Origin: a virus
Reading direction: 5' to 3' (one strand)
Virus record (IMG/VR): IMGVR_UViG_3300028393_003819
Location: 1-21,955 of that record
DNA: 21,955 nt
The notes beneath the pieces were generated by a model. It saw nothing but the letters and a program-made list of their open reading frames with translations, was not told the DNA's origin and did no database searches. The position numbers and the translations under genes were made by a program. The first letter of the stretch is position 1. Each line of letters opens with the position of its first letter. Positions 1,718 to 20,714 of this stretch are shown here, in pieces.

Positions 1718-2047
1718 TTAAATGTTTTTCCACCTAAAAAAGTCATATGTTTCTCTAAAATCAGGTGTGATTCCCTCCAACTCTAAATGTTGTTCCACCC
1801 AGTCTTTTATAAGTTGTTTAGTTTCATCATAATCTAACGAAAACATATTTGATATATTACGCCAAATTGAGAATGGAACTCTCATCTCACCTGATTTTTC
1901 CAATTCTAACATCACCTCATCATCTTTTTTCCAAAATTTAGAGTGCTTATATTTTGCCGATTCAACTTCATACATATCCCCAAATAAGTAATCCAAATAC
2001 TTAAACTCTAATTTCCTCATTTGATTCTCTGTTATTAAAATCTTCAT
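1718..2047 (-). CDS. ITENQ-leader tandem paralogue 1 (leftmost), 109 aa
   Basis: One of four adjacent leftward paralogues. The N-terminus MKILITENQMRKLEFKYLDY is shared by all four, followed by a Tyr/Lys-rich stretch with FWKKDDEVMLELEKSG (about residues 38-53), an IW..ISNMFSL segment and VEQHLELEGITP. The C-terminus ends FFRWKNI, the apparently full-length tail. The leader contains I-T-E at residues 5-7, which fits the (I/L)-x-E cleavage rule of T4-type prohead proteases, so this may be an internal virion protein (inference). There are no membrane segments or Cys. Function unknown. Confidence 0.8.
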   Translation of the reverse strand: MKILITENQMRKLEFKYLDYLFGDMYEVESAKYKHSKFWKKDDEVMLELEKSGEMRVPFSIWRNISNMFSLDYDETKQLIKDWVEQHLELEGITPDFRETYDFFRWKNI

Positions 2048-2087
2048 AATTTTTATATTAAACGTTGTTCCACCTATAAACGTAAAG

Positions 2088-2390
2088 TTAAATTGGTATT
2101 AAGGGTATAATTCCCTCCAATTCTAAATGTTGTTCCACCCATTCCTTTATAAGTTGTTGTACTTCATAAGAATCCAATGAAAACATATTTTTAATATCTT
2201 TCCAAATTCTATTTGAAACATACAACCTACCTGATTTTTCCAATTCTAACAATATCTCCTTATTATCTTTTATAAAATATCTTACATCAGGATATTTTTT
2301 TGATTCCACTTCATACATATCCTCAAATAAGTAATCCAAATACTTAAACTCCAATCTTCTCATTTGATTTTCTGTTATTAAAAACTTCAT
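2088..2390 (-). CDS. ITENQ-leader tandem paralogue 2, shortened C-terminus
   Basis: Paralogue of the preceding gene, starting MKFLITENQMRRLEFKYLDY. It ends LIPI at TAA (2090-2088). The frame stays open beyond this stop for ten more codons (2087-2058), reading LYVYRWNNV and then TAA, which matches the full-length tail (RWKNI / WWWNNI) of the outer paralogues. The stop therefore looks like an acquired nonsense codon or a readthrough site. The DNA around it (2042-2115) is identical to 2385-2458 in the next copy. Function unknown; possible virion-internal protein by its I-T-E leader. Confidence 0.78.
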   Translation of the reverse strand: MKFLITENQMRRLEFKYLDYLFEDMYEVESKKYPDVRYFIKDNKEILLELEKSGRLYVSNRIWKDIKNMFSLDSYEVQQLIKEWVEQHLELEGIIPLIPI

Positions 2391-2430
2391 AATTTTTATA
2401 TTAAACGTTGTTCCACCTATAAACGTAAAG

Positions 2431-2796
2431 TTAAATTGGTATTAAGGGTATAATTCCCACCAACCCTAAACGTTGTTCCATCAAAGTCATGCCAGTCTTG
2501 ATTAAGCTGTTGGGTGTGACCCCCACCAACCCTAAACGTTGTTCCATCCAGTCTTTTATAAGTTGTTGAGTTTCATAATAATTTAATGAAAACATATTGG
2601 AAATATCACTCCAAATTGAACGTAAAACCCACAAATCACCTGATTTTTCCAATTCTAACATCACCTCATCATCTTTTTTCCAAAATTTAGAGTGCTTATA
2701 TTTTGCCGATTCAACTTCATATATGTCATCAAATAAGTAATTCAAATACTTAAACTCCAATCTTCTCATTTGATTTTCTGTTATAATGTATTTCAT
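2431..2796 (-). CDS. ITENQ-leader tandem paralogue 3, internal C-terminal duplication
   Basis: Third family member, 121 aa, starting MKYIITENQMRRLEFKYLNY. The block MEQRLGLVG occurs twice near the C-terminus (about residues 84-92 and 107-115), so part of the tail has been duplicated. It ends LIPI at a TAA identical in context to paralogue 2, again followed in frame by codons for LYVYRWNNV (2430-2401). The duplicated DNA carries the GTTGTTCCA element that recurs through the array, suggesting slippage or recombination between short repeats. Function unknown. Confidence 0.76.
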   Translation of the reverse strand: MKYIITENQMRRLEFKYLNYLFDDIYEVESAKYKHSKFWKKDDEVMLELEKSGDLWVLRSIWSDISNMFSLNYYETQQLIKDWMEQRLGLVGVTPNSLIKTGMTLMEQRLGLVGIIPLIPI

Positions 2797-2800
2797 AATT

Positions 2801-3130
2801 TTAAATGTTGTTCCACCACCAGGATAATTTGGGTTCGGCAGGCGGTGGTGTGATTCCCCCCAATTCTAAATGTTGTTCCACCCATTCCTTTATAAGTTGT
2901 TGAGTTTCGCGATTTTCCAAAGAAAACATATTGGAAATATCATTCCAAATTGAATGTAAAACCCATAATCTGTCTAATTTTACCAATTCTAATACAACCT
3001 TATCACCTTTCTTCCAAAATCTAGAATTAGGATAATGTTTTGACTTAACTTCATACATATCCCCAAATAAGTAATCCAAATACTTAAACTCCAATCTTCT
3101 CATTTGATTTTCTGTTATTAAAAACTTCAT
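2801..3130 (-). CDS. ITENQ-leader tandem paralogue 4 (promoter-proximal), 109 aa
   Basis: First transcribed copy of the four-gene family, starting MKFLITENQMRRLEFKYLDY. It retains an intact tail ending WWWNNI. Its stop lies 4 nt before the next start, so the array is probably one operon. TATAAATA at 3135-3142 (TATTTATA on the coding strand) is 4 nt upstream of the ATG, and a leftward terminator at 3144-3171 separates it from the gene before it. The array may therefore begin its own transcript here. The divergence (KSKHYPNSRF versus ESAKYKHSKF) shows that the copies are evolving apart. Function unknown. Confidence 0.78.
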   Translation of the reverse strand: MKFLITENQMRRLEFKYLDYLFGDMYEVKSKHYPNSRFWKKGDKVVLELVKLDRLWVLHSIWNDISNMFSLENRETQQLIKEWVEQHLELGGITPPPAEPKLSWWWNNI

Positions 3131-3368: not shown

Positions 3369-3959
3369 TTAGTTTATTATTTTGAATTTATGTTTGTAAC
3401 AAGTTTTACGAATACATTTACTTTTTCCACCACAATTGACTTCTTTACCTCTTAAACTACTTGATAATTTCATTCTAATATTCCTTAAACTTGCTTTAGT
3501 AAATCCATTATCATATAAATAGTTTGCAGCCTCAAATAAAGTTTCAAATATATATTCTCTTTCAGTTTCTATATTTATTAATGCAAATTTTTCAAAATTA
3601 TTATTTTTCTTTAAATTATATTTTGAAAGTTGAATCTTGGTTTTGTCTGTTAATACATTTCTTCTACTATTACTAACAAGACATAAATTATATCCAAATT
3701 TCATATCGTTAGTTTTATTTTCTATAATATAATAATTTTCTTTTTCAACTAAATCTTTTTTATCGCACATTTCTATAATATCAAAAATAAAATTTTCTTT
3801 ACCATCTCTATCATAAGAACTCTGAAGGAATTTATTATCGTGAATTTTTTTTTGTAACATCCAAAAATGTTTTTCTTTTCTTTTTTTAATATTCACAGAA
3901 CTTCCTATGTATATTTTATTATTTTTGGTGTTAGTTATTTTATATATTCCGCATCCCAT
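3369..3959 (-). CDS. GIY-YIG homing endonuclease
   Basis: The 196-aa protein has an N-terminal GIY-YIG nuclease domain: GIY at residues 4-6, YIG at 17-19, an Arg/His-rich helix (R27, H31), the likely catalytic Glu in LVEKENYYI (E74) and the closing GYNL at 89-92. The C-terminal half looks like a DNA-recognition region: a NUMOD-like segment (FALINIETEREYIFETLFEAANYL, about 125-148) and a Cys/Lys-rich end (CGGKSKCIRKTC) that might bind zinc. Free-standing enzymes of this kind cut DNA near their own gene and spread between related phages. No intron is apparent around it. It is divergent from the 590-aa gene and carries a TATTTATT box just before its ATG. Confidence 0.9.
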   Translation of the reverse strand: MGCGIYKITNTKNNKIYIGSSVNIKKRKEKHFWMLQKKIHDNKFLQSSYDRDGKENFIFDIIEMCDKKDLVEKENYYIIENKTNDMKFGYNLCLVSNSRRNVLTDKTKIQLSKYNLKKNNNFEKFALINIETEREYIFETLFEAANYLYDNGFTKASLRNIRMKLSSSLRGKEVNCGGKSKCIRKTCYKHKFKIIN

Positions 3960-7144: not shown

Positions 7145-7358
7145 AGAAATGGTTAATCACCCGAATCATTATGGGGGAGCCGACAACGCATATGAAGCGA
7201 TTAAGATTATTGAAGCCCTTGAATTGGACTTCCACACAGGGAACGCACTCAAGTATCTTGTAAGGGCGGGAAAAAAAGACCCCGAAAAAGAACTTGAAGA
7301 TTTAAAGAAAGCCGCTTGGTATCTCTACCGAAAAATAAAAAATATAGAAACTACGTAA
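7134..7358 (+). CDS. DUF3310 family protein
   Basis: A 74-aa protein with the family's two hallmarks: VNHPNHYGG near the N-terminus (residues 7-15), and the C-terminal segment HTGNALKYLVRAGKKD followed by LEDLKKAAWYLYRKI. DUF3310 proteins are small, common in tailed phages, and sometimes annotated as nucleotide-kinase-like; their biochemical role is poorly established. The length fits a single complete domain. The stop codon TAA shares its last A with the ATG of the methyltransferase gene, so the two are probably translationally coupled. Confidence 0.9.
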   Translation: MENKEMVNHPNHYGGADNAYEAIKIIEALELDFHTGNALKYLVRAGKKDPEKELEDLKKAAWYLYRKIKNIETT

Positions 7359-8212
7359 TGATAGAGACAAACAAAATAATAAATGGTAACTGTATTGATG
7401 TGATGAAAAATATGCCCGAAGGATGTATTGATTTAGTTGTCACGTCGCCTCCCTATGGTGTTGGAATCAAATATGACGTTCACGATGATGATATGGAATT
7501 CACCGAGTATCAGGAGTTCAGTAAAGACTGGCTCACACAAGCATACAGGATTCTTAAAGATGATGGTAGAATTGCTGTTAACATTCCGTATGAAATTAAC
7601 AGACAGGCGAAGGGTGGAAGAATCTTTATGGTTGCTGAAGTGTGGAAGATAATGCAAGAAATTGGTTTTGGTTTTTTTGGTATAATTGATTTAGAAGAAG
7701 ATAGTCCCCACAGAAGTAAAACCACGGCTTGGGGTTCTTGGATGAGTCCGTCCAGCCCTTATGTGTATAACCCAAAAGAATGTGTTATTCTTGCTTACAA
7801 GAAACAACATATTAAGAAAGTTAAGGGCGTCCCGCAGTGGGTCGGTGTTCCTACGGATATTGAAATGGAAGATGGAACAACCAAGAAAAAGATTGTTTAT
7901 CAAGATGATGATAAAAAAGATTTTATGGAACTTGTATTCGGGCAGTGGAAGTATCTTAACGACAGTCGTCCTATGACGAAGGCAACATTTTCTATGGATA
8001 TTCCAACCAAAGCAATTAAGATTCTTACTTATAAAGATGATATTGTCCTTGACCCGTTCTGTGGTAGTGGTACAAGTTGTGTTGCGGCAGAAATATTAGA
8101 TAGACGATGGTTGGGGATAGAATTAAGTGAAAACTATGCAAAAGTTGCAAGAGACAGGGTTCAGTTATTCATAGAGAAGAAAAAACAATTAGAAATAGAA
8201 GGGTTAGTTTAA
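7358..8212 (+). CDS. Beta-class DNA methyltransferase (N4-cytosine or N6-adenine)
   Basis: A 284-aa SAM-dependent DNA methyltransferase of the N6/N4 family. The catalytic motif TSPPYG (about residues 29-34) comes before the SAM-binding motif DPFCGSGT (about 232-239), which is the beta-class order. WLGIELSENYAKVARDRV after motif I is also typical. The SPPY form is common in N4-cytosine enzymes but does not settle the target base. I chose the ATG at 7358, which gives MIETNKIINGNCIDVM and overlaps the preceding stop by 1 nt; an upstream in-frame ATG at 7316 lies inside DUF3310. No restriction endonuclease gene is adjacent, so it is probably an orphan enzyme that protects phage DNA or marks sites. 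A terminator follows at once. Confidence 0.93.
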   Translation: MIETNKIINGNCIDVMKNMPEGCIDLVVTSPPYGVGIKYDVHDDDMEFTEYQEFSKDWLTQAYRILKDDGRIAVNIPYEINRQAKGGRIFMVAEVWKIMQEIGFGFFGIIDLEEDSPHRSKTTAWGSWMSPSSPYVYNPKECVILAYKKQHIKKVKGVPQWVGVPTDIEMEDGTTKKKIVYQDDDKKDFMELVFGQWKYLNDSRPMTKATFSMDIPTKAIKILTYKDDIVLDPFCGSGTSCVAAEILDRRWLGIELSENYAKVARDRVQLFIEKKKQLEIEGLV

Positions 8213-9250: not shown

Positions 9251-9622
9251 ATGAAAGAAGAATTAACATTAAAACTCATTCAGATACAAACTCAATTTAA
9301 GTTTTTGCATTGGCAAACATTTGGAGATGCTAAACATAAAGCATATGGTGAAATATATGATTTGTTAGGGGATAATATTGATACATTTGTTGAAGTTATG
9401 ATGGGAAAACAAGGAAGAGTTGAGTTTGACCCAGAGTTCTCAATTATGTTTCAAGATATCAAAAATTTAAGTGTTCAAAACTTTTTGGATGGTATAACAG
9501 AATTTTTGGTAGGAATGACGGAGCAGTTAGATAAAAAATATGATACTGATTTGTTAAACATTAGAGATGAAATGTTGGGAGACATTAATCAATTAAAATA
9601 CAGATTAACTTTAAAATACTAA
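9251..9622 (+). CDS. DUF5856-like helical phage protein
   Basis: A 123-aa all-helical protein with the pattern KFLHWQTFGDAKHKAYGEIYDLLGDNIDTFVEV and, later, DTDLLNIRDEMLGDINQLKY. The HWQT...HKA.G..Y...D.IDxFVE arrangement recalls the ferritin/Dps-like fold and matches my memory of DUF5856 proteins from large phages. Metal binding by His19, His28 and acidic residues is possible but unproven. The gene converges with the DUF192 gene, with only 5 nt between their stops. No clear terminator was seen. Confidence 0.75.
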   Translation: MKEELTLKLIQIQTQFKFLHWQTFGDAKHKAYGEIYDLLGDNIDTFVEVMMGKQGRVEFDPEFSIMFQDIKNLSVQNFLDGITEFLVGMTEQLDKKYDTDLLNIRDEMLGDINQLKYRLTLKY

Positions 9623-11611: not shown

Positions 11612-13603
11612 ATGAAAAAAATCACATTATTACTTTCGTTATTGTTTATGACGGTGTTATTCACGTCATTAAAAATAACAAGTAATCCAAATTGCCCAAC
11701 AGGGTATTCAACGGCTCCATCACTAAATGGTACAACTGTAAGGAATTGTACAAGTTGTCACGGAGATTATTCATTAAACACGGCTGGTGGAGGAATTACG
11801 GTAACAGGATTACCAACAACATTTACTCCAGGTACTGCATATCCTTTTAGTGTAAAGGTAACTCATTCAGCTGCGAACAGAACAGTATGGGGTGTTGCAA
11901 TTAAAGCGGTGGATACATTAACTCATGCAGTTATTGGAACTTGGACTACAACAAATCCAAACACATCAATTAAAGGAACTCCAACAATTGCAAATGGTAA
12001 TTATGAGTTGAGTCATGCAAATGCCGCAACATCAACCGCTACTAACACTTACACTTATTCTAATTTAACTTGGACAGCACCGGCGTTACCAACTGCGGTA
12101 CAATCAAGAGTTAAGTTTTATGTTTCTGCGGTTGCTGGTAACAGTAGTGGTGATGAAGCTGGTGATTATGTTTACTCAACATCATTAACTTCAAATCAGT
12201 ATGTTGCTCCAACTCCTTGTACATTTACTTACGGACAATGGACAACTTGTTCTAATGGTACACAAACAAGAAGTTACACAACAAGTCCGGCAGGATGTAC
12301 AGGAACTCCACCCGCAGATTCAATTCAAAGAACTTGTTCAGTTCCTTGTACTTTCACATATGGTGCTTGGACAACTTGTTCTAATGGAACACAAACAAGA
12401 AGTTATACAACATCACCAGCAGGTTGTACAGGTACACCTCCAACAGATAGTATAACAAGAACTTGTACGGTAGTTCCGCCCACATCATTACCAACACCTG
12501 TAACAATCACAGGAACAATAAATCCTGGCGTTTGTGATACTATAAGAACATTTACTGTTCAAAACCAAAGTAATGTATTTTATGCTTGGGTAATTAGTGG
12601 TGTTGGAAATTACATTACTAATGGACAGGGAACAAATGTATTGACTGCGGTTGTTAAAGCGGGAGGAAGTGTTACAGTATCATTAAGTAATACTGCAGGT
12701 TCAATCCCGTCAACAAGTTTGGCGTTCACTAAAGCAGTTCCACCAACTCCAACGGCTATGAATGGTAGTTTGGCACCTTGCCCTAACAGTACATTTACTT
12801 ATTCATTAACAAATCCTTTACCAAGTGCAACACAAGTTGCTCCAAATGTATTTAGATGGACAACACCAGCATTTACTACAATAACTTCAGCAAATGCTGA
12901 TAGTTCACAAATTACATTAAATTTTGGTGGTAGTTATGTTGGTGGTACATTATCGGCTAAAGGTGTTACAAACTGTGGTGCTGTAGGTAGTGCTAAATCA
13001 ATAGTTTTAGCGCCAACAAAGGCGGTGGATGTAGTTTCAAGTACAGGATTTTGGAATGGTTGTATTGGTAATTCAGTAAATTATTTTGTAGTTTCACCAG
13101 TTACTTCAATCTCACCTGTTTCAGGATATAGATGGACAACACCAGCATTTACAAGTATAACTTCAGCAAACGCTGATAGTTCACAAATCACATTACAATT
13201 TAACACAGGTTATAAGGGTGGTTCACTTAAAGTCCAAAGCTCAACAAGTTGTGGTTCTCTTGGAACTGCGGTTTCAAAAACTTTAACACATATTGGATGC
13301 GCAGCGGGACAGAGAAATGGTATTGAAGAAGAAACTCTTGTAACTGATTTAGTAAGTTTATTTCCTAATCCAAATAATGGTGAATTTACAATTAATATTC
13401 AAACAGGAGATAAAATAACTCAAAAGGCTTTAATTCAAATAATTAATTTACAAGGAAATCTTTTAGACCAATATACTGTTGGTGTTAATGGTGGTGTTAT
13501 TAGTAAAAAAATAACAAACACTTCATTAAAAACTGGTATGTATTTTATTACTTATATTATTGGTGATAAGAAGAAAACAATTAAGATGTATGTAACTCAA
13601 TAA
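11612..13603 (+). CDS. Secreted multidomain protein with CxxCH motif and type IX secretion sorting domain, 663 aa
   Basis: The signal peptide is MKKITLLLSLLFMTVLFTSL. Next comes a domain with a haem-type CxxCH motif (NCTSCHGD, Cys46-His50) and GLPTTFTPGTAYPFSVKVTH, like the choice-of-anchor V / Reeler-like domains of Bacteroidota. Two near-identical repeats follow from about residue 201 (CTFTYG.WTTCSNGTQTRSY), resembling thrombospondin type 1 modules, then Ig/PKD-like domains. One of these is duplicated (RWTTPAFT.ITSANADSSQ at about 415 and 508). The C-terminus, LVSLFPNPNNGEFTINIQ to KTIKMYVTQ (about 585-663), is a classic type A sorting domain, which directs export across the outer membrane by the host type IX system. 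A secreted or surface adhesin-like product is likely. Such a gene is unusual in a phage and suggests acquisition from a host. Confidence 0.88.
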   Translation: MKKITLLLSLLFMTVLFTSLKITSNPNCPTGYSTAPSLNGTTVRNCTSCHGDYSLNTAGGGITVTGLPTTFTPGTAYPFSVKVTHSAANRTVWGVAIKAVDTLTHAVIGTWTTTNPNTSIKGTPTIANGNYELSHANAATSTATNTYTYSNLTWTAPALPTAVQSRVKFYVSAVAGNSSGDEAGDYVYSTSLTSNQYVAPTPCTFTYGQWTTCSNGTQTRSYTTSPAGCTGTPPADSIQRTCSVPCTFTYGAWTTCSNGTQTRSYTTSPAGCTGTPPTDSITRTCTVVPPTSLPTPVTITGTINPGVCDTIRTFTVQNQSNVFYAWVISGVGNYITNGQGTNVLTAVVKAGGSVTVSLSNTAGSIPSTSLAFTKAVPPTPTAMNGSLAPCPNSTFTYSLTNPLPSATQVAPNVFRWTTPAFTTITSANADSSQITLNFGGSYVGGTLSAKGVTNCGAVGSAKSIVLAPTKAVDVVSSTGFWNGCIGNSVNYFVVSPVTSISPVSGYRWTTPAFTSITSANADSSQITLQFNTGYKGGSLKVQSSTSCGSLGTAVSKTLTHIGCAAGQRNGIEEETLVTDLVSLFPNPNNGEFTINIQTGDKITQKALIQIINLQGNLLDQYTVGVNGGVISKKITNTSLKTGMYFITYIIGDKKKTIKMYVTQ

Positions 13604-13622: not shown

Positions 13623-13655
13623 AAACCGGTATATGAAAATATATCGGTTTTTTTT
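13623..13655 (+). terminator. Strong intrinsic terminator after the sorting-domain gene
   Basis: A 12-bp stem, 13623-13634 with 13639-13650 (one G-T pair), closed by a GAAA tetraloop and followed by a T run. Confidence 0.92.
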
Positions 13656-13656
13656 A

Positions 13657-13687
13657 TTGACTTTTTTTAAAAAAATATGTATGTTTG
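13657..13687 (+). promoter_or_regulatory. Bacteroidota-type promoter P0
   Basis: TTG of TTGAC (13657-13659), 20 nt, TATGTTTG (13680-13687). It opens the RNA locus immediately after a strong terminator. Confidence 0.7.
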
Positions 13688-13693
13688 TAGTCC

Positions 13694-13760
13694 TTTGGGA
13701 AATATGAAGATATTTATATTTCCTGGTCCTCACGGACAAACACCCCAAAACCCCAAAATA
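13694..13760 (+). ncRNA. Short structured leader or small RNA from P0
   Basis: Directly after P0, GGAAATAT (13698-13705) pairs with ATATTTCC (13716-13723), then GTCC-TCAC-GGAC forms a small hairpin (13726-13737), followed by C/A-rich sequence. No ORF is present. It may be a separate small RNA or the 5' part of a longer tRNA transcript. Confidence 0.4.
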
Positions 13761-13773
13761 AGTTTCAAAAAGA

Positions 13774-13805
13774 TTTGATTAATTGAAAAGTTCTTCTTAA
13801 CTTTG
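13774..13805 (+). promoter_or_regulatory. Promoter P1 (repeat copy 1), upstream of tRNA-Met
   Basis: TTTG (13774-13777), 20 nt, TAACTTTG (13798-13805), within a roughly 55-nt repeat that recurs at 13984 and 14127. Matches the Bacteroidota -33/-7 consensus. Confidence 0.8.
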
Positions 13806-13831
13806 TGAAACAAATGAGATGAGAGTCTCAC

Positions 13832-13876
13832 AAACCCCACAAGTAGTTTGAGAAAATTATAATAAATGTGGGGTTT
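13832..13876 (+). other. Leader hairpin before tRNA-Met
   Basis: AAACCCCACA (13832-13841) pairs perfectly with TGTGGGGTTT (13867-13876). It lies between P1 and the boxA-like element, as the leader hairpin domain does before the large RNA. Confidence 0.7.
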
Positions 13877-13884
13877 ATTTTGAA

Positions 13885-13898
13885 AGTTCTTTAAATAA
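13885..13898 (+). promoter_or_regulatory. boxA-like antitermination element before tRNA-Met
   Basis: AGTTCTTTAAATAA resembles boxA of rRNA leaders (TGCTCTTTAACA in E. coli). The sequence at 14317-14330 is identical except for one base. Boxes of this kind recruit Nus factors to keep polymerase moving on untranslated RNA. The role here is inferred. Confidence 0.55.
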
Positions 13899-13905
13899 AT
13901 TATAC

Positions 13906-13977
13906 AGTGGCGTAGAGCAGTGGTAGCTCACTAGGCTCATAACCTAGGGGTCATTGGTTCGAATCCAATCGCCGCAA
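13906..13977 (+). tRNA. tRNA-Met (CAT anticodon), elongator type
   Basis: The cloverleaf can be drawn by eye: acceptor AGTGGCG with CGCCGCA, D stem GAGC/GCTC, anticodon stem CTAGG/CCTAG with loop CTCATAA, variable loop GGGTC, and T arm ATTGG-TTCGAAT-CCAAT. The CTCATAA loop and GGGTC variable loop match elongator tRNA-Met; an isoleucine tRNA with lysidine-modified CAT cannot be excluded. The terminal pair is an A-A mismatch, and the 3' end reads ACAA instead of ACCA, so CCA would have to be added or repaired by the host enzyme. It is preceded by a promoter, a hairpin and a boxA-like element. Confidence 0.9.
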
Positions 13978-13999
13978 CAAAAAAAAGTTTTAAAAAAGA

Positions 14000-14031
14000 T
14001 TTGATAGAATGAAAACTTCTTCTTAACTTTG
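14000..14031 (+). promoter_or_regulatory. Promoter P2 (repeat copy 2)
   Basis: TTTG (14000-14003), 20 nt, TAACTTTG (14024-14031). Same repeat and identical spacing as P1 and P3. Confidence 0.78.
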
Positions 14032-14036
14032 TGAAA

Positions 14037-14125
14037 CATTTCGGGGTAATTCTTCAGATTCCCTAAAAAGAATTGATTGGAAGAGCGGTATGGTGATGTC
14101 GCTACTGGTGAATCAAACCGAAAAA
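14037..14125 (+). ncRNA. Compact structured small RNA between P2 and P3
   Basis: Starts about 7 nt after the -7 box of P2. A closing stem TTTCGG / CCGAAA (about 14039-14044 with 14118-14123) encloses two arms. The first is GGG-AAT paired with ATT-CCC (14044-14063, one bulged T). The second stacks TTGATT/AATCAA (14073-14078 with 14111-14116) on an 8-bp hairpin AGCGGTAT-GGTG-ATGTCGCT (14084-14103). This is a three-way junction with no ORF. It ends in an A run, not a T run, so it may be the 5' domain of a transcript reading into the large RNA rather than a separate product. I know of no family match. Confidence 0.5.
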
Positions 14126-14140
14126 AAAGTTTCAAAAAGA

Positions 14141-14172
14141 TTTGATTAATTAAAAAGTTCTTCTTAACTTTG
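14141..14172 (+). promoter_or_regulatory. Promoter P3 (repeat copy 3), upstream of the large RNA
   Basis: TTTG (14141-14144), 20 nt, TAACTTTG (14165-14172). The surrounding repeat is almost identical to P1. The transcription start would be near 14179. Confidence 0.8.
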
Positions 14173-14182
14173 TGAAACAAAT

Positions 14183-14308
14183 GAAGAAGATGGGGTTGTA
14201 AAGATTCCATTATTCTTTCCCTACCGAAAGGAGTTCAAAAATTAGAACAAAAATCGGTGATTACAAGTGGGGGGAATGAGTGGTTGTAAAGATTCCAGCA
14301 TCTTCTTT
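14183..14308 (+). other. 5' leader domain of the large RNA
   Basis: GAAGAAGATG (14183-14192) pairs with CATCTTCTTT (14299-14308), enclosing a domain that begins and ends with an exact 16-nt repeat, GGTTGTAAAGATTCCA (14194-14209 and 14282-14297). Inside, ACCGA pairs with TCGGT and GTTC with GAAC. TTGTAA in either repeat copy can pair with TTACAA near 14260, so two alternative folds are possible. Confidence 0.6.
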
Positions 14309-14316
14309 AATTAGAT

Positions 14317-14330
14317 AGTTCTTTGAATAA
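14317..14330 (+). promoter_or_regulatory. boxA-like antitermination element before the large RNA
   Basis: AGTTCTTTGAATAA differs by one base from the element before tRNA-Met and resembles the rRNA-leader boxA. It lies just after the leader hairpin domain and before the highly structured RNA body. Confidence 0.55.
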
Positions 14331-15238
14331 AAATATTATCCATTCAGGATGTTGATGATGAGACCTTCGGGTTGATTCTGAGATAACTGATAAAAGGTAA
14401 TTGGCCGTATATGGTCATTAAATAAACCACGAAAGTGGCTTAAAGTGATTCACCTTGGTTTAGGTGGGTTGCGGCATCGGTAACGGTGCTTGAGTATACA
14501 AGCGAGATATCGTTTAACCTTAGTACCCGAGGGTAACACTGTAGGGGAGTTGGTTAGATGGATTGGCGATGTGGGTCGTCAGTTTGAGGTGGGAACACCA
14601 ATAAGAATAACTCGTAGAGTTAATGCAAAACATAGGGTTATCCGACTCTACTATTGCGTAACTCAGTATTAAAGTTGATTTAAAACCGAAAGGTAAGTTG
14701 GAGTACAGGTGGTGCTGTTACCAACCCTGACACGTCTCTACCAAGAGCGTCTCACTGAAGTTGACTTGAAATATGGAGGTAGGGATACTTCATAAGGGAG
14801 TTTAGTATTTGGTTGTTCAAAAGATAACTGAGCTAGCGACGGACCGCTTCCTTTTCCATCCACAAACCACTAAAACTTTGAATAAATTAATTCATAATTA
14901 AATCAATCAAGGAAAAGTGTCCGTCAGTCGGAAATGAAAGATGACTACATAGTCGTGAGTTGTTCACGGCCACAAAGGTTCCCAAGACTAATGTGATTTT
15001 TATGAAAGTCTTCTAGTCCCGCAAGGACTAATCAGGGTGGCAACCTTGAGGAGTGATGAGTAGTAAGAGAGTATTTTTCGACTTAAAGTGTGATTGACTT
15101 TATCAATCGTCATTAAGATTTACTTTTCAAAAGAAAGTGGAAACGAAGGGAAACAATAATCCTTCTAAAGAATCTTACAAGATGGTGTATTCTCAACCTT
15201 TTTTTTATTTACCTGTCACTTTTGACGGGTTTTTTTTA
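14331..15238 (+). ncRNA. Large ornate structured noncoding RNA, about 0.9 kb (GOLLD/ROOL-like candidate)
   Basis: No credible ORF, but many complementary segments. Examples are TGGCC/GGTCA (14402-14417), CCAC-GAAA-GTGG (14427-14438), GCATCG-GTAA-CGGTGC (14474-14489), GGTG-GGAA-CACC (14588-14599), GAGTTA(A)TGC with GCGTAACTC (14617-14626, 14656-14664), GTACAG/CTG(T)TAC (14703-14721) and ACG(T)CTCT/AGAGCGT (14732-14750). A long-range double helix joins GACGGAC and CTTTTCC (14838-14857) to GGAAAAG and GTCCGTC (14911-14925). TAGTCC/GGACTA (15014-15030) and GATTGA/TCAATC (15092-15108) follow, then a final three-way junction closed by TAAGATT/AATCTTA (15114-15120, 15171-15177). Several loops are GNRA tetraloops. 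Base composition is visibly richer in G/C than the flanking DNA. It has its own promoter, boxA-like element and terminator, and sits beside a tRNA, as reported for GOLLD RNAs of phages. Family identity is unverified; a new class is possible. Confidence 0.75.
15211..15237 (+). terminator. Intrinsic terminator ending the large RNA
   Basis: ACCTGTCA (15211-15218) pairs with TGACGGGT (15223-15230), loop CTTT, followed by a run of eight T. An earlier T-rich stretch (15199-15206) precedes it. Confidence 0.92.
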
Positions 15239-15249
15239 TGCCCTCACAC

Positions 15250-15257
15250 TATTTATT
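15250..15257 (+). promoter_or_regulatory. TATTTATT box, candidate phage late promoter element
   Basis: Thirteen nt before the ATG at 15271 and just after a strong terminator, so initiation near here is required. Same box and spacing as at 4002 and 8233. Confidence 0.45.
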
Positions 15258-15270
15258 ATAAAATTATATT

Positions 15271-16077
15271 ATGTCTAAACAATTTATAAATGAAGTAAGT
15301 AGAATGAAAGACCTTTTTGGATATAAAAAGGGACAAGTAATATCTGAACAAGTAACTTCAAAACAAAAAGAAGCCATGAATGCAGGATGGGGTCCCGTTA
15401 CTGATGAAATTGCAAAATCACTAAAAGTTGGTTCTGACGGTAAAATATTACCAAAGGAAGTAACTCAACCAAATTCATCTACAGACCCATTTGCGGCGTA
15501 TCTATGTGTTAAAAAGTTAGGACCTATTAAAACAGAAAATAGAGATGGTAAAAGTATGAAATTTGTCCAATCGGTAGAGGACAATACCGATGTAAATATT
15601 GGAGGATTTAATTATACTTTGTCAAGTATAAAATTCTTTGAGAATGGAGATGCGGTGATTGGAGGAAAGATAGTAAAAAAATTCAGTTGTGGTACTGGTC
15701 GTGAGATAATTATTGATGATGTTAAAATAACTCCAAAACTAATCACAAAACCAGTAGTTCAAATTCCAAAAGAATTAAAAGATTCTGAAGGTGTTAAAAA
15801 ATTCCAAGATTGGATGGATACTAATCATTCTAATTGGGTTAAGGGTGGTAAAAATTTAAATAAAGGCGGTGGGTATGGTAAATTTGGTCCAAGTACAAGT
15901 GCTGCTTGGAGTAAATATAAAAATGAATATTTAGGTGGTTCTAAAACAACAGATACAGGTTTTTCACCAATTAATAAAATGATGGCAGGAACTAAAGATT
16001 TTCCTGGTGCATTTAATACAGGTGGTATAGGTGTTTCTGATGAAGAAGATAAAGAATTATACACAACAAAAAATTAA
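15271..16077 (+). CDS. Leader-bearing phage protein with C-terminal peptidoglycan-binding-like segment, 268 aa
   Basis: The leader MSKQFINEVSRMKDLFGYKK continues to VISEQ and contains two (I/L)-x-E sites (I-N-E and I-S-E). It is nearly identical to the leader of the next gene, although the bodies differ. The middle (about residues 70-160) is strand-rich. The segment VKKFQDWMDTNHSNW...NKGGGYGKFGPSTSAAWSKYK (about 175-220) resembles phage peptidoglycan-binding-like repeats, where FGPxTxxAW is the recurring signature. It could be a virion protein, possibly targeting the cell wall. No signal peptide or catalytic motif was seen. Its stop is 5 nt from the next start. Confidence 0.8.
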   Translation: MSKQFINEVSRMKDLFGYKKGQVISEQVTSKQKEAMNAGWGPVTDEIAKSLKVGSDGKILPKEVTQPNSSTDPFAAYLCVKKLGPIKTENRDGKSMKFVQSVEDNTDVNIGGFNYTLSSIKFFENGDAVIGGKIVKKFSCGTGREIIIDDVKITPKLITKPVVQIPKELKDSEGVKKFQDWMDTNHSNWVKGGKNLNKGGGYGKFGPSTSAAWSKYKNEYLGGSKTTDTGFSPINKMMAGTKDFPGAFNTGGIGVSDEEDKELYTTKN

Positions 16078-16082
16078 TAATT

Positions 16083-17324
16083 ATGTCAAAACAATTTATA
16101 AATGAAGTAAGTAGAATGAAAAACCTCTTTGATTACAAAAGAGGTGTTGTCATTTCTGAACAAAAATTTTTGAACGAAGCTGAAATTCCATTTCCTGCGG
16201 GAGTATCCAAAGAAGCATATGATGAAATAATGGGTATTTCTGCAGAAAACAAAAAAACAGGGCGGGGTTCATACTTGTTTCCCACACAAGCTGCTGAAAT
16301 AGACAAAAAATACGGTGCGGGAATTTTCAAAAAATTTACTGATGCTGGAGGGTACGATGTTTTAGCGGGAAAATCAACTTTTACAACAACGGAACCTGGA
16401 GCTAAAACTAACTCTACATACTCCACCACATGGAATCCCGCGGCGCAATACGGCATTAAAGGTACTAAAGTTGAAGAATATCCTGAATGTGTTAGAGCAT
16501 TTGGAAATCCCATTTCAAATACGGCAAAAACAGTATATGGTATTGCTGGAACTGGTGAATATAAAGGATATTTTTTTTATTCTAATATAGGTGATAACGT
16601 GGCTCCGAAAGGAAGAGTTCTAAAATCAGATGGTACTATGGGTGATTATACTTGTTTCAACGGGAAAATTGTTATAGATGGTAATTATGGTGCCGCTCCG
16701 GCAGGGGCTGCGGCGGCAAAACAACCGACACAGTGGACTAAAGAACCTGCAACTTTGGATGACGATAAGAACACACTAAAAAAACAAATGACAGGTGAAA
16801 AAGTAAAACAATTACAAACAGGATTAGATATTAAAAATAAAGGTGGTAAATCTTTAGCAACAGGAAAATTTTGGACACTAACTGATACAAAACTAAAACA
16901 ATTATATCCTACTGAATATACAACACAAAAAGGTGTTACAAAAACTTTATTTGATAAGATTGTTAATCCAACATTAAAAGCATCAACAGCTGCGGCACCT
17001 ACAACAATACCTGTGACAGGAACAACACCTGCAGCAGGGGTAACACCGGCAACGGAAATAACCCCTACAATCATATCGGCACCACAAATTGCTGCTGCTG
17101 CAAAAACAACACCTGAGGAGTTTTATAATACTTTAAGGAAAAATGGATATATTCAGGGAGCGCCTGAGGAAGGTGATGGTAGGATTAAGTATAAAGCACC
17201 AAAAGGAGAAACTCCAAATCTTATGAAAGACCAACAAGATTTACTTACACAACAGATGAATACTTTTGGTTATGATTTTTACCGAAAAGGAAATGATAAT
17301 AGATTAGTTTATACTAAAAGATAA
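16083..17324 (+). CDS. Leader-bearing phage protein, 413 aa, Ala/Thr/Pro-rich linker
   Basis: Shares its first 26 residues, with only a few changes, with the preceding protein (MSKQFINEVSRMK, then VISEQ), and has a further F-L-N-E site. Residues 40-200 include a Gly/Tyr-rich part with a pair of Cys (ECVRAF, YTCFNG). LKKQMTGEKVKQLQTGLDI (about 236-254) followed by TGKFWTLTDTKLKQLYP resembles a peptidoglycan-binding-like helix bundle. An Ala/Thr/Pro linker (about 300-345) leads to a C-terminal domain starting TPEEFYNTLRKNGYI. This modular layout fits a virion or cell-wall-associated protein. Function unknown. It is followed by a terminator. Confidence 0.8.
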   Translation: MSKQFINEVSRMKNLFDYKRGVVISEQKFLNEAEIPFPAGVSKEAYDEIMGISAENKKTGRGSYLFPTQAAEIDKKYGAGIFKKFTDAGGYDVLAGKSTFTTTEPGAKTNSTYSTTWNPAAQYGIKGTKVEEYPECVRAFGNPISNTAKTVYGIAGTGEYKGYFFYSNIGDNVAPKGRVLKSDGTMGDYTCFNGKIVIDGNYGAAPAGAAAAKQPTQWTKEPATLDDDKNTLKKQMTGEKVKQLQTGLDIKNKGGKSLATGKFWTLTDTKLKQLYPTEYTTQKGVTKTLFDKIVNPTLKASTAAAPTTIPVTGTTPAAGVTPATEITPTIISAPQIAAAAKTTPEEFYNTLRKNGYIQGAPEEGDGRIKYKAPKGETPNLMKDQQDLLTQQMNTFGYDFYRKGNDNRLVYTKR

Positions 17325-17736: not shown

Positions 17737-18270
17737 ATGTTTGACAAATTAATAGAATTTTTAATACAGTTTTTGGATGATGTTCTTCCTTTTAAAGTGA
17801 TTAATGAGTGGGAGAAAGGGGTTTATTTGAGATTTGGTAAATATGTTAAAAACGTTGAACCGGGTATTGTGTTTAAGATACCATTTGCCGATAAGGTATG
17901 GCATTCACCTGTAATAACTCAAACAATTCACCTACAACCCCAAACTTTAACAACTCTTGATGAGAAGGATGTCGTATTAAAAGCAATTGTAAGATATCAC
18001 GTACAAGATGTTAAAAAATATCTATTAAATGTTATGCACGCATCTGACGTACTTGTTGATACCACTCAGGGAGTCATTAGAGACACCGTAGAGGGTTATA
18101 ATTGGGAGGACTTGTACAATATAAGTCAGACATTAGAAGAACAAGTTCAGGGTATTGTTGAGGATTGGGGTATTAGAATAGAAAGAATTACATTAACTGA
18201 CTTGGGTATTGTTAAGACATATAGAATTATGTCAGATAATACAAAACCAACACAAATAATTCCAGAATAA
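17737..18270 (+). CDS. SPFH / band-7 domain protein
   Basis: A 177-aa protein. A short N-terminal amphipathic segment (MFDKLIEFLIQFLDDVLPF) could attach it to membrane. The SPFH core follows: EWEKGVYLRFGKYVKNVEPGI with the typical GLY.R.G.......PG pattern, then KIPFADKV, QTLTTLDEKDVVLKAIVRYHV, and VIRDTVEGYNWEDLYN. It ends with GIRIERITLTDLGI. Cellular SPFH proteins (stomatin, prohibitin, HflK/C) have a long C-terminal coiled coil for ring assembly; here only a short tail follows, so the protein is minimal. The role in a phage is unknown; membrane organisation or interference with the host FtsH-HflKC protease are possibilities. Confidence 0.9.
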   Translation: MFDKLIEFLIQFLDDVLPFKVINEWEKGVYLRFGKYVKNVEPGIVFKIPFADKVWHSPVITQTIHLQPQTLTTLDEKDVVLKAIVRYHVQDVKKYLLNVMHASDVLVDTTQGVIRDTVEGYNWEDLYNISQTLEEQVQGIVEDWGIRIERITLTDLGIVKTYRIMSDNTKPTQIIPE

Positions 18271-18317: not shown

Positions 18318-18596
18318 ATGGAAATGAATCACAACATTAGAATTCAACACGAAAAGTTTGGTATTTTACTTGACGAGACATTTGTTAATCCGGTTCAGTT
18401 TAAACTATTTTTGAGATTAACTCAAAGCTGTGTTGAGATGAAACAGGATTTAACATTCTTTAACGGTACGGATTTCTTTATTCATATTCCTTATGATAAA
18501 TTGAAGGAGTGTATCATCAATACAAAAGTGGATACTTATACTTTAACAGACCATATTAGAAACAAATCAAAATTGGAGGCATTAGAAACATTATGA
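18318..18596 (+). CDS. Small hypothetical protein, 92 aa
   Basis: Starts MEMNHNIRIQHEKFGILLDE, followed by a mixed alpha/beta-looking chain (FFIHIPYDKLKECI, TYTLTDHIRNKSKLEALETL). There is no signal peptide or motif. It overlaps the next gene by 4 nt (ATGA), so the two are translationally coupled. A strong host-type promoter lies upstream, suggesting early expression and perhaps a host-takeover role (inference). Confidence 0.8.
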   Translation: MEMNHNIRIQHEKFGILLDETFVNPVQFKLFLRLTQSCVEMKQDLTFFNGTDFFIHIPYDKLKECIINTKVDTYTLTDHIRNKSKLEALETL

Positions 18597-18877
18597 TTAC
18601 ATTTAAAGACATACTAAAAAAAGCTGAAACTCATCCTATGGGTGAGGGTAAAATGGTTAGATACGAAACACCCCAACTGATAATCTCTATTGTCGGTGGT
18701 AGACAGGGTTTATATGGGGATTTTAACGAGTCATTTGAGATGGCGATTATCGATAAAAAAACCGATGATTTTATTTCGGATAAATTATACTCCGAATATT
18801 GTGATGGTAGCGGACAGATTATGCCGTATGTGACTCGGGAACAGATGTTGAAAGTCGTGAATGAGTTGGTGAAGTAA
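18593..18877 (+). CDS. Small hypothetical protein, 94 aa
   Basis: Starts MITFKDILKKAETHPMGEGK, with ATGA overlapping the preceding stop. The central part (LIISIVGGRQGLYGDFNESFEMAIID) is strand-like and is followed by an acidic, Tyr-containing stretch and a helical end (TREQMLKVVNELVK). No catalytic motif is obvious. Second gene of a two-gene unit that ends in a structured 3' region. Function unknown. Confidence 0.8.
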   Translation: MITFKDILKKAETHPMGEGKMVRYETPQLIISIVGGRQGLYGDFNESFEMAIIDKKTDDFISDKLYSEYCDGSGQIMPYVTREQMLKVVNELVK

Positions 18878-18880
18878 TAG

Positions 18881-18974
18881 TTTCCTGGTAGTATACTAAT
18901 AAACCAGGTGGTGGAGAATTGACCCTAAATCGGTCAGTCCTGAAAAGTGAGAGGTTAATCCTCTCATTTTTTTT
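18881..18974 (+). ncRNA. Structured 3' region, possible small RNA
   Basis: Three hairpins in 90 nt: CCTGGT (18884-18889) with ACCAGG (18903-18908), TGACC (18920-18924) with GGTCA (18932-18936), and the terminator stem. This is more structure than a simple 3' end needs. It could be a processed small RNA or an RNase-protective tail. Confidence 0.35.
18948..18974 (+). terminator. Intrinsic terminator after 18593 gene
   Basis: TGAGAGG (18948-18954) pairs with CCTCTCA (18960-18966), loop TTAAT, followed by eight T. It abuts the end of the convergent leftward gene. Confidence 0.92.
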
Positions 18975-19458
18975 ATTGATACCATATACCAAATCCACAC
19001 CTTGTGGAAATGTAATTATATGAGGCTGACCTAATCCAATCCATAAAGTCTTCCCACTCACTCATTCCACCCATATCAACGTTATTTGCCAATTCTTCAA
19101 GGGTTGTTTCATTACCATCTTCATCAATTATTTTATTCTCACCCCAACTATAATTTATGATTACGTCAGTTTCACTTTCTTCTAAATCTATCCAAAGACT
19201 ATGAATTATTATATCAATCCAAGCATCTGGATAACCAGTTATTTCGGGTATTCTTATTTTAATGTCTGAATGAATACCTGATGATAATTTGCTTAATGCT
19301 TTTTTGGCAAAATCAGTTGCACCTTCTTCACCAAGATTTTCAATTAAATCTGTTAAAAAATCCTCACCTTCATAATCTAATGCGTCAAATATCCTATCTA
19401 AATTTGAGTTGGGATAACCTTCTTTTGCTAAAATCTTTAATACTTTTTTAAATTCCAT
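18973..19458 (-). CDS. Hypothetical protein, 161 aa, partner of the zinc-motif gene
   Basis: Starts MEFKKVLKILAKEGYPNSNL with a helical N-terminus, then acidic (YEGEDFLTDLIENLGEEG) and strand-like parts (IKIRIPEITGYPDAWIDIII). The last third, WEDFMDWIRSASYNYIS, is aromatic. The start is 2 nt after the stop of the zinc-motif gene, so the two are co-translated and may act together. No family recognised. Confidence 0.8.
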   Translation of the reverse strand: MEFKKVLKILAKEGYPNSNLDRIFDALDYEGEDFLTDLIENLGEEGATDFAKKALSKLSSGIHSDIKIRIPEITGYPDAWIDIIIHSLWIDLEESETDVIINYSWGENKIIDEDGNETTLEELANNVDMGGMSEWEDFMDWIRSASYNYISTRCGFGIWYQ

Positions 19459-19460
19459 AG

Positions 19461-20396
19461 TTATGTGTTAAAATAAAAATATTCATCTTCTTCGTATAGT
19501 CCAAGTGAAAAATCTGCCTTCATATATAAACGAGGTTCAGTGGTGAAATAATAACAATAAACCTGTTCGGTTTCTAATTCAAAATCTTGTTCTCCGTGTT
19601 TTTCTTTTCTGCCCAAATTAATTATTTCTTTCCAAAAATCACCATAAGTATCATCCGTTGTAATTGGTTTTTCTGTATTTACGTTTAATTCACATAGGTT
19701 AAAAATATCTTTATTTGAAGTGCAAATATCATAAGTTACATAGTTAATTTCATCTGTGGGTTCTTCACCTCTACCATAGCAAGTATCACAAGTTGTAGTA
19801 CCATCTCCACCACATTCGCCGCATGATTCTTCACCATCTCCACCACAATCACCGCAAGTTTTTTCGCCCTTACCTTCACAATCACCACAAGTGGCTTCAC
19901 CGGAACCATTACATTCACCACAACTATCTCCTTCTTCATCCTCACCAGTACCATCACAGGTATCACAACTTACTTTACCATCACCATCACATTCCCAACA
20001 TCCTACCTCACCTTTCCCACCACATTCACTACACGTAACGATTCCATCCCCACTACATTCATCACACGACTCATAACCATCACCGGCGCAGTTATTACAA
20101 GTATCATAATAAGTTTCATTATCTGTTTCAAGAACCGATGCAAAAAATAAATTATTGATTATATTATCACCCAATTCAAATTTACCTGTCTTTAATAATG
20201 AATAAATGTAATAAGAGGTTTTAATATAACCCATTCTATCGGTTTTAAATAATTCTCCAAAGTATTCCCTTTGTCCTTTACAAATTTCTTTAAAACTTGA
20301 ATAAACATTATTAGGTGTTAAATCTTTTACTTTAACAAGTGAAGCAACTCTTTTTGCAAGACTTCTCCATTTTCTATTTGAAATTTCTTCCGCCAT
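19461..20396 (-). CDS. Protein with ten DnaJ-type CxxCxGxG zinc motifs, no J domain, 311 aa
   Basis: Residues 100-210 contain ten consecutive CxxCxGxG motifs: [72 protein letters not shown] and CDTCYGRG. In DnaJ four such motifs bind two zinc ions and hold unfolded proteins; here ten motifs (20 Cys) could bind about five. There is no J domain (no HPD), so it should not recruit DnaK through the usual route. The N-terminal 90 residues are helical ([17 protein letters not shown]). The C-terminal 95 residues are strand-rich and acidic, ending [11 protein letters not shown] chaperone-like or binding scaffold role is likely; partners are unknown. Confidence 0.88.
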
Positions 20397-20456
20397 AACT
20401 ATAAATATCCTTTGATTTATAACTTTTTTTATTTAAGTTTGTGTAAAGATAAATAT

Positions 20457-20714
20457 ATGGCAATAAAACTATACATCACAGAAGAAGAAATAAATTCAAA
20501 CAGAAACGACGCTGACTTGGGTCGGTTGATAAGAAAAAGATTTTGGAATTTAAAAGAAGAAAATGAATATTTAAAAGATGTTGAGTATGAACACTGTATG
20601 ATATGTGGTAAATTATCACCATATACTATAAACACAAAAACAACGGATAGAATTGGTTTTGTGGAAGGACAGGGGCAAGGTTGTTATCAACCCAATAAAT
20701 GTGATAAGATATGA
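20457..20714 (+). CDS. Small protein with ITE leader and putative zinc site, 85 aa
   Basis: I start at ATG 20457, giving MAIKLYITEEEINSNRNDAD; an upstream in-frame ATG at 20412 is less likely because the leader at 20457 matches the I-T-E leaders of other proteins here. The C-terminal part, HCMICGKLSPYT to GQGCYQPNKC, has four Cys arranged as C-x2-C and C-x5-C, probably a zinc-binding knuckle. The stop overlaps the next start (ATGA). Function unknown. Confidence 0.75.
   Translation: MAIKLYITEEEINSNRNDADLGRLIRKRFWNLKEENEYLKDVEYEHCMICGKLSPYTINTKTTDRIGFVEGQGQGCYQPNKCDKI

Follow-up and report, generated by a model that had tools for sequence, protein, structure and literature searches.

A strongly acidic ten-motif CxxCxGxG array in a phage protein, predicted to form a five-rung zinc hairpin

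Results

The array gene and its surroundings

The window analysed here, 21,955 bases long, is an entire virus record of IMG/VR. Its minus strand encodes a 311-residue protein containing a row of CxxCxGxG motifs, followed by a partner gene and accompanied by three neighbours that are conserved in relatives and served as synteny markers:

19461-20396 (-): array gene, 311 aa, ATG start; predicted globular base with a ten-motif CxxCxGxG array inserted
20100-20396 (-): N-terminal half of the predicted base, aa 1-99; five helices and a long strand (84-99), AlphaFold2 pLDDT mostly >90; homologous in ~20 relatives
19944-20099 (-): arm 1 of the putative zinc hairpin (aa 100-151), with motifs 1-5 at period 11; from motif spacing and arm symmetry
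19923-19943 (-): putative tip of the hairpin, EDEEGDS (aa 152-158), in the 15-residue central gap; from spacing and the gap lengths of the family
19767-19922 (-): arm 2 of the putative zinc hairpin (aa 159-210), with motifs 6-10 at period 11; from motif spacing and arm symmetry
19464-19766 (-): C-terminal half of the predicted base, aa 211-311; strand 211-226, two helices and two more strands; homologous in relatives
18973-19458 (-): partner gene, 161 aa, whose start lies 2 bp beyond the stop of the array gene; predicted alpha/beta fold
18593-18877 (+): conserved convergent neighbour, ~98 aa, with 'SIVGGxxGLYGDF'; synteny marker
18318-18596 (+): conserved neighbour, ~92 aa; synteny marker
20412-20714 (+): conserved divergent neighbour with CxxCG, likely start at ATG 20457; synteny marker

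All ten motifs match CxxCxGxG exactly, beginning at residues 100, 111, 122, 133 and 144 and at residues 159, 170, 181, 192 and 203. The period is 11 throughout, the sole exception being a 15-residue gap at the exact middle, which splits the array into 5+5, and 20 cysteines fall within 112 residues. The sequence-only reading of this DNA had counted ten motifs in a row against the four of DnaJ. The count stands, and the motifs are kept in relatives, where most of the cysteine columns are invariant in alignments of 29 and 45 sequences. A chance origin of the array is excluded because relatives that are homologous at the N- and C-terminal regions also keep it. Codon usage varies from repeat to repeat, and a recent tandem duplication of DNA was ruled out as its origin because the codons are not alike among the repeats.

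The same reading had proposed an expanded DnaJ-type zinc domain lacking a J domain. Searched by itself, the protein scores 15.4 bits against Pfam DnaJ_CXXCXGXG, under the cut-off of 32.7, its match to BSD2_CRD is likewise below cut-off, and Pfam, NCBIfam and PHROGs give it no family above a curated or useful level. A profile of 29 array relatives matches the solved zinc domains of DnaJ and BSD2 (1exk, E=1e-7; 9ci1, E=6e-7; 6jzb, E=8e-7), which supports the first part of the proposal. The second holds as well, as the J domain (PF00226) finds no match in the array ORF or elsewhere in the 22-kb record.

The rest of the window contains several other features. Four tandem paralogous ORFs of 100–121 aa at 1718-3130 (-) begin with MK(F/I/Y)(L/I)ITENQMR(R/K)LEFKYL, and PHROG matches identify a GIY-YIG homing endonuclease at 3369-3959 (-), a DNA methyltransferase at 7316-8212 (+) and a Dps-like protein at 9251-9622 (+). 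The phage protein encoded at 11612-13603 (+) combines PKD-like domains with a C-terminal Por_Secre_tail (type 9 secretion) signal, which points to a Bacteroidota host. It is followed by a gene-poor region (13650-15250), where a single tRNA-Met (13906-13978) and a 70-nt repeat in three copies (13748, 13974, 14115) are located; gene-poor stretches also lie near the array cluster in relatives such as L017 and L009. The adjacent genes at 15271-16077 and 16083-17324 (+) share the N-terminal stretch MSKQFINEVSRMK(N/D)LF.YK.G.VISEQ, with a similar start in L017 (4197-5240), and this stretch is possibly a sorting or cleavage tag. An SPFH/Band 7 protein is encoded at 17737-18270 (+), and counterparts of it recur near the array cluster in L014, L017 and L020.

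A predicted base interrupted by the array

AlphaFold2, run with 29 sequences, modelled residues 11–100 and 211–300 mostly at a pLDDT of ~88–98, with the long strands 84–99 and 211–226 immediately bordering the array. Structure prediction, which the earlier reading had named as a check, gave a confident base and a poor array: aa 113–198 are mostly below a pLDDT of 50, and the hairpin discussed below is unconfirmed by the model. The N- and C-terminal parts had been taken as unrelated domains. They are probably not those of DnaJ: the flanks of the array gave no Pfam match, whether to the substrate-binding beta sandwiches CTD1/CTD2 or to another family, and the model has no confident fold match. 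The notion of two separate domains fares less well, as the model suggests that they are probably the two halves of a single base, with the hairpin projecting from it. A Foldseek search of solved structures gave no relative for this base. A fold search of BFVD with the base returned only A0A6J5L6F2, a phage protein annotated as 'Heat shock protein DnaJ, cysteine-rich domain' (E=6e-8).

Relatives in phages and cells

IMG/VR was scanned with a degenerate DNA pattern that demanded four exact motifs at period 11 within one arm and left symmetry free. The scan yielded at least 117 stretches. A pattern search of viral contigs starting from the single protein returned no array relatives, the array alignment being too variable. 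Among the matches listed, more than 60 distinct phage relatives and ~100 cellular arrays have matching mirror symmetry, and two architectures prevail in phages. Type A, to which the array protein belongs, has ~95 aa on each side of the array. One such protein, L060, is homologous to the array protein in both its N- and C-terminal regions (E=5e-45 and 1e-51), and ~20 further type A proteins are likewise homologous to the array protein in both flanks. Type B carries the array at the C-terminus, behind a long N-terminal part (~400 aa in several members) with 'SCM...FMDRIY' motifs, which matches no Pfam or PHROG family. Huge phages, LR745206.1 and LR756504.1 among them, carry type B; examples with acidic C-terminal arrays of 3+3 to 7+7 motifs are L002:3924-5324, L003:3855-5597, L061:11202-12914 and L090:1580-3274. 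A big phage record typically contains one or two array genes, and tblastn against a collection of 50,697 phage records gave matches only in three uncultured huge phages.

The same pattern finds cellular arrays in Bacteroidota, spirochaetes, planctomycetes, Firmicutes, Campylobacter, and Asgard and other archaea. These arrays (L136-L253, e.g. L151:4418-4897, L147:3113-4303 and L224) show palindromic spacing in many phyla, with up to 9+9 motifs and a charge that is mostly neutral or basic, and they often lie within proteins of 500–800 aa or in short, secreted-looking ones (Prevotella and other Bacteroidales). Expanded mirror-symmetric CxxCxGxG arrays were not found described in the literature searched, which covered few subscription papers, and the array protein is apparently a member of a widespread and so far undescribed 'zinc ladder' class.

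Mirror symmetry of the arms

CxxC motifs were tallied on each side of the central irregular gap. Among the matches listed, 51 of 52 non-redundant type A proteins have the same number of motifs in both arms (4+4, n=35; 5+5, n=15; 2+2, n=1). The sole unequal case, L068, was counted as 4+3 owing to the motif-range cut-off and is 4+4 in full, as seen in L270 of the same contig. Equal arms were also found in 13 of the 17 type B proteins among these matches, spanning 3+3, 4+4, 5+5, 6+6 and 7+7, the other four being near-equal; some of the unequal counts stem from the same cut-off. The longest gap and the centre of the array coincide exactly in 61 of 67 distinct phage arrays among the matches listed (8.0 expected) and in 62 of 101 cellular arrays (8.3 expected). 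Even irregular gaps away from the centre are mirrored in cellular arrays, in 27 slots versus 7.5 ± 2.3 with one arm shuffled, as in the spacings 13,13,11x5,15,11x5,13,13 and 11x4,14,23,14,11x4. The central gap lengths cluster at 14, 15, 18, 19, 23, 27 and 31; these steps of four residues upwards from 14 or 15 fit a beta hairpin gaining two residues per strand.

The arms also change together. On a tree built from the flanking regions alone, in which two of the relevant sister pairs have modest support (0.47 and 0.74), the number of motifs underwent five changes in arm 1 and six in arm 2, on the same branches save for the miscounted L068.

Known DnaJ zinc domains have two zinc sites, or one when truncated. 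In the two-site domain it is established that motifs 1 and 4 share one zinc and motifs 2 and 3 the other (Martinez-Yamout et al. 2000, cited in PMC9038755). The array very probably forms one antiparallel zinc hairpin of five rungs, in which the DnaJ cysteine-rich fold would be extended from two nested zinc sites to five. Motifs 1+10, 2+9, 3+8, 4+7 and 5+6 would each share one zinc, EDEEGDS would form the tip, and the hairpin would stand on an alpha/beta globular base built from both ends of the protein. Nested pairing, in which a motif is matched with the motif at the same position from the tip on the opposite arm, is favoured because it predicts both the mirror symmetry and the joint change of the arms. 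The sharing of zinc by neighbouring motifs within one arm was ruled out by arms with odd numbers of motifs (3, 5 and 7). The earlier suggestion of a rod with about five zinc sites gains support from the mirrored 5+5 arms, with zinc loading, nested pairing and rod shape all standing as predictions.

A zinc store or redox buffer, in which ten CxxC pairs would bind zinc or absorb oxidants in the manner of metallothionein, would suit the density of cysteines in the array. Storage would have no need of an exact period of 11, mirrored arms or rungs that change jointly, nor would it call for the base to be conserved or a partner gene to be linked, and we consider this function improbable.

Acidity of phage arrays

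The array contains 30 acidic and 5 basic residues out of 112, a net charge of -25 when side chains only are counted, without the charge of Zn-thiolates. Strong acidity is common to type A and type B: the median net charge per 100 aa is -22.9 in 115 phage arrays (10–90%: -26 to -19), versus +4.2 in 119 cellular arrays and -1.2 in other ORFs at the same phage loci. It is not a general property of the zinc domains of these phages, because the DnaJ zinc domains in eight array-phage records have +1.6 to +4.8 per 100 aa. Across the family, the total charge of the array has a standard deviation of 2.7, against 4.4 for independent sites when gaps and relatedness are ignored, and this comparison of sequences suggests that total charge is under selection. 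The earlier reading had noted neither this acidity nor the mirroring of the arms.

The array had been proposed to act as an unusual chaperone or client trap. That phage arrays are polyanionic, unlike the DnaJ zinc domain, argues against a simple trap for unfolded clients. Such concentrated acidity suggests instead an arm that would bind as a polyanion, acting as a decoy or docking arm for proteins that are basic or bind nucleic acids. Mimicry of nucleic acids does not follow from acidity alone, which may also serve solubility, cation binding or the binding of a basic client.

The partner gene and the neighbourhood

A search with the partner family by itself retrieved 53 loci, 49 of them with usable upstream sequence. 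The array gene lies upstream of the partner in 46 of these 49, within 2–46 bp in 43 and with one intervening ORF in 3; many of the contigs are near-identical and there are 23 distinct partner sequences, so that independent cases are fewer. The linkage of the two genes is genuine, as the description of a coupled partner gene at 18973 had anticipated, and the two proteins would presumably be in contact. L268 (4567-5483) and L272 lack the array gene, and there the 140-aa gene usually found upstream of it abuts the partner, which is therefore able to persist without the array protein.

The partner is modelled confidently (pLDDT 90) as an alpha/beta protein, and has no family in Pfam, NCBIfam or PHROGs. 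Its best fold matches, SpoIIIAF (Z 4.1) and several RbfA chains (Z 2–3.6), were rejected as too weak. Homology between the partner and the base of the array protein was also rejected (hhalign E ~0.3–0.5).

The recognisable neighbours of the array gene in relatives are auxiliary (2OG-Fe(II) oxygenase, DNA methyltransferase, kinase, NUDIX-like and Band 7 proteins), and no recognised head or tail genes were found among the neighbours in the relatives examined. This bears on the possibility that the protein is built into the virion as a rod or spacer, a role to which its expected rod-like shape and a length that is lineage-specific in phages, from 3 to 7 rungs, would be suited. The auxiliary neighbourhood speaks against it, as does the lineage of L268/L272, which lacks the array gene though the flanking genes stay, and a virion role appears improbable. 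The genome neighbourhood of the array gene revealed no link to defence or transcription.

DnaJ and Hsp70 in phages with arrays

A J-domain protein is encoded in 20 of the 27 array records longer than 60 kb among the matches listed, against 2 of 16 random viral contigs above the same length (p = 1e-4), and in 12 of the 13 partner-bearing records of this size (p = 2e-5 against the same controls). Hsp70 was found in 7 of 30 array records among the matches listed. The phage DnaJ proteins inspected are ordinary class A members with four CxxC motifs; a 'split DnaJ', with J domain and zinc domain in separate genes, was rejected, as the phage DnaJs own a full four-motif domain. DnaK together with DnaJ has been reported in aquatic Bacteroidota jumbo 'moraphages', which are similar to the array phages (PMC12619734).

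These data speak for an accessory chaperone linked to Hsp70, whose hairpin would hold phage clients and pass them on to the DnaJ/DnaK of phage or host while phage proteins are being made or assembled. Such a function would agree with the relation of the array profile to the zinc domains of DnaJ and BSD2, and the DnaJ zinc domain is known to bind clients (PMC12799103). However, an array protein without a J domain is not predicted to contact Hsp70 directly, and strong acidity is lacking in the zinc domains of the DnaJs that array-bearing phages encode. The co-occurrence may reflect shared ancestry rather than function, through inheritance within a clade and many near-identical records, and in the loci examined the array gene never adjoins DnaJ or DnaK. 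We regard this chaperone function as rather unlikely. In our judgement a holdase of this kind is the main rival to the polyanionic arm, with the zinc or redox buffer and the virion rod coming after it.

Discussion

A possible polyanionic arm

The explanation that we favour, a five-rung acidic zinc hairpin acting as a polyanionic arm, is tentative when taken as a whole and falls a little short of being probable. A stiff arm of this kind would cover a basic, nucleic-acid-binding surface of some host or phage protein, presumably the class to which its target belongs, and would serve as a decoy, an inhibitor or a protective docking arm, with specificity coming from the base and the co-encoded 161-aa partner. 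The mechanism itself, occupation of a basic or nucleic-acid-binding surface, is possible and put forward with slightly more reserve. A precedent for it is anti-TRAP, a small zinc protein that keeps TRAP from binding RNA (PMC2896485).

A broader proposal can be made, in which bacteria, archaea and phages all use CxxCxGxG arrays as a general zinc-ladder hairpin, expandable and of 3–9 rungs, and the phage version is a polyanionic rod mimicking nucleic acid that blocks host DNA- or RNA-binding proteins of defence or transcription. We consider it doubtful in this full form, and less likely than the chaperone function. Arrays with mirrored arms and 3–9 apparent rungs would mean that the hairpin can lengthen rung by rung. 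An expandable hairpin would be a ruler-like scaffold and would offer a simple test of the co-evolution of repeats in opposite strands, and the difference in charge that sets phage arrays apart from cellular ones is a concrete, testable sign of phage-specific use, possibly in host takeover by phages of aquatic Bacteroidota.

Comparison with known systems

The closest known domain is the zinc domain of DnaJ and other class A J proteins (PF00684), with which the array shares its CxxCxGxG motifs and profile matches to 1exk, 6jzb and 2ctt. The zinc domain of class A J proteins stands out from CTD1 (PMC12799103), and the array protein is similarly predicted to project a zinc hairpin from a globular domain. 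It differs from DnaJ in having ten motifs (five predicted rungs) instead of four (two), a fixed period of 11 residues, strong acidity, and neither a J domain nor a recognisable CTD. The plastid Rubisco assembly chaperones BSD2/ZnJ2 (PF25436) also carry a DnaJ-type zinc domain without a J domain and are matched by both the profile and the single sequence; unlike the array protein, they are small plastid proteins with four motifs and no comparable base, and they are not known to be acidic.

Among smaller modules, anti-TRAP (RtpA, PF15777) is matched weakly by the array profile (E=0.007) and differs in its far shorter zinc module (53-aa chain), its oligomeric state and the lack of a hairpin array. 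The DNA polymerases of HMO-2011-type phages contain a partial DnaJ central domain and are thus another instance of phage CxxCxGxG outside the context of J proteins, with two motifs only, set inside the polymerase (PMC9038755). The phage DNA mimics T7 Ocr and SPO1 Gp44 resemble the array protein in being phage proteins with concentrated negative charge, whereas their folds are unrelated and contain no zinc ladder, and mimicry is proven for them and proposed here. Set against these systems and the literature searched, what is probably new is a predicted DnaJ-type zinc hairpin that has been expanded, is free of a J domain and is strongly acidic in phages.
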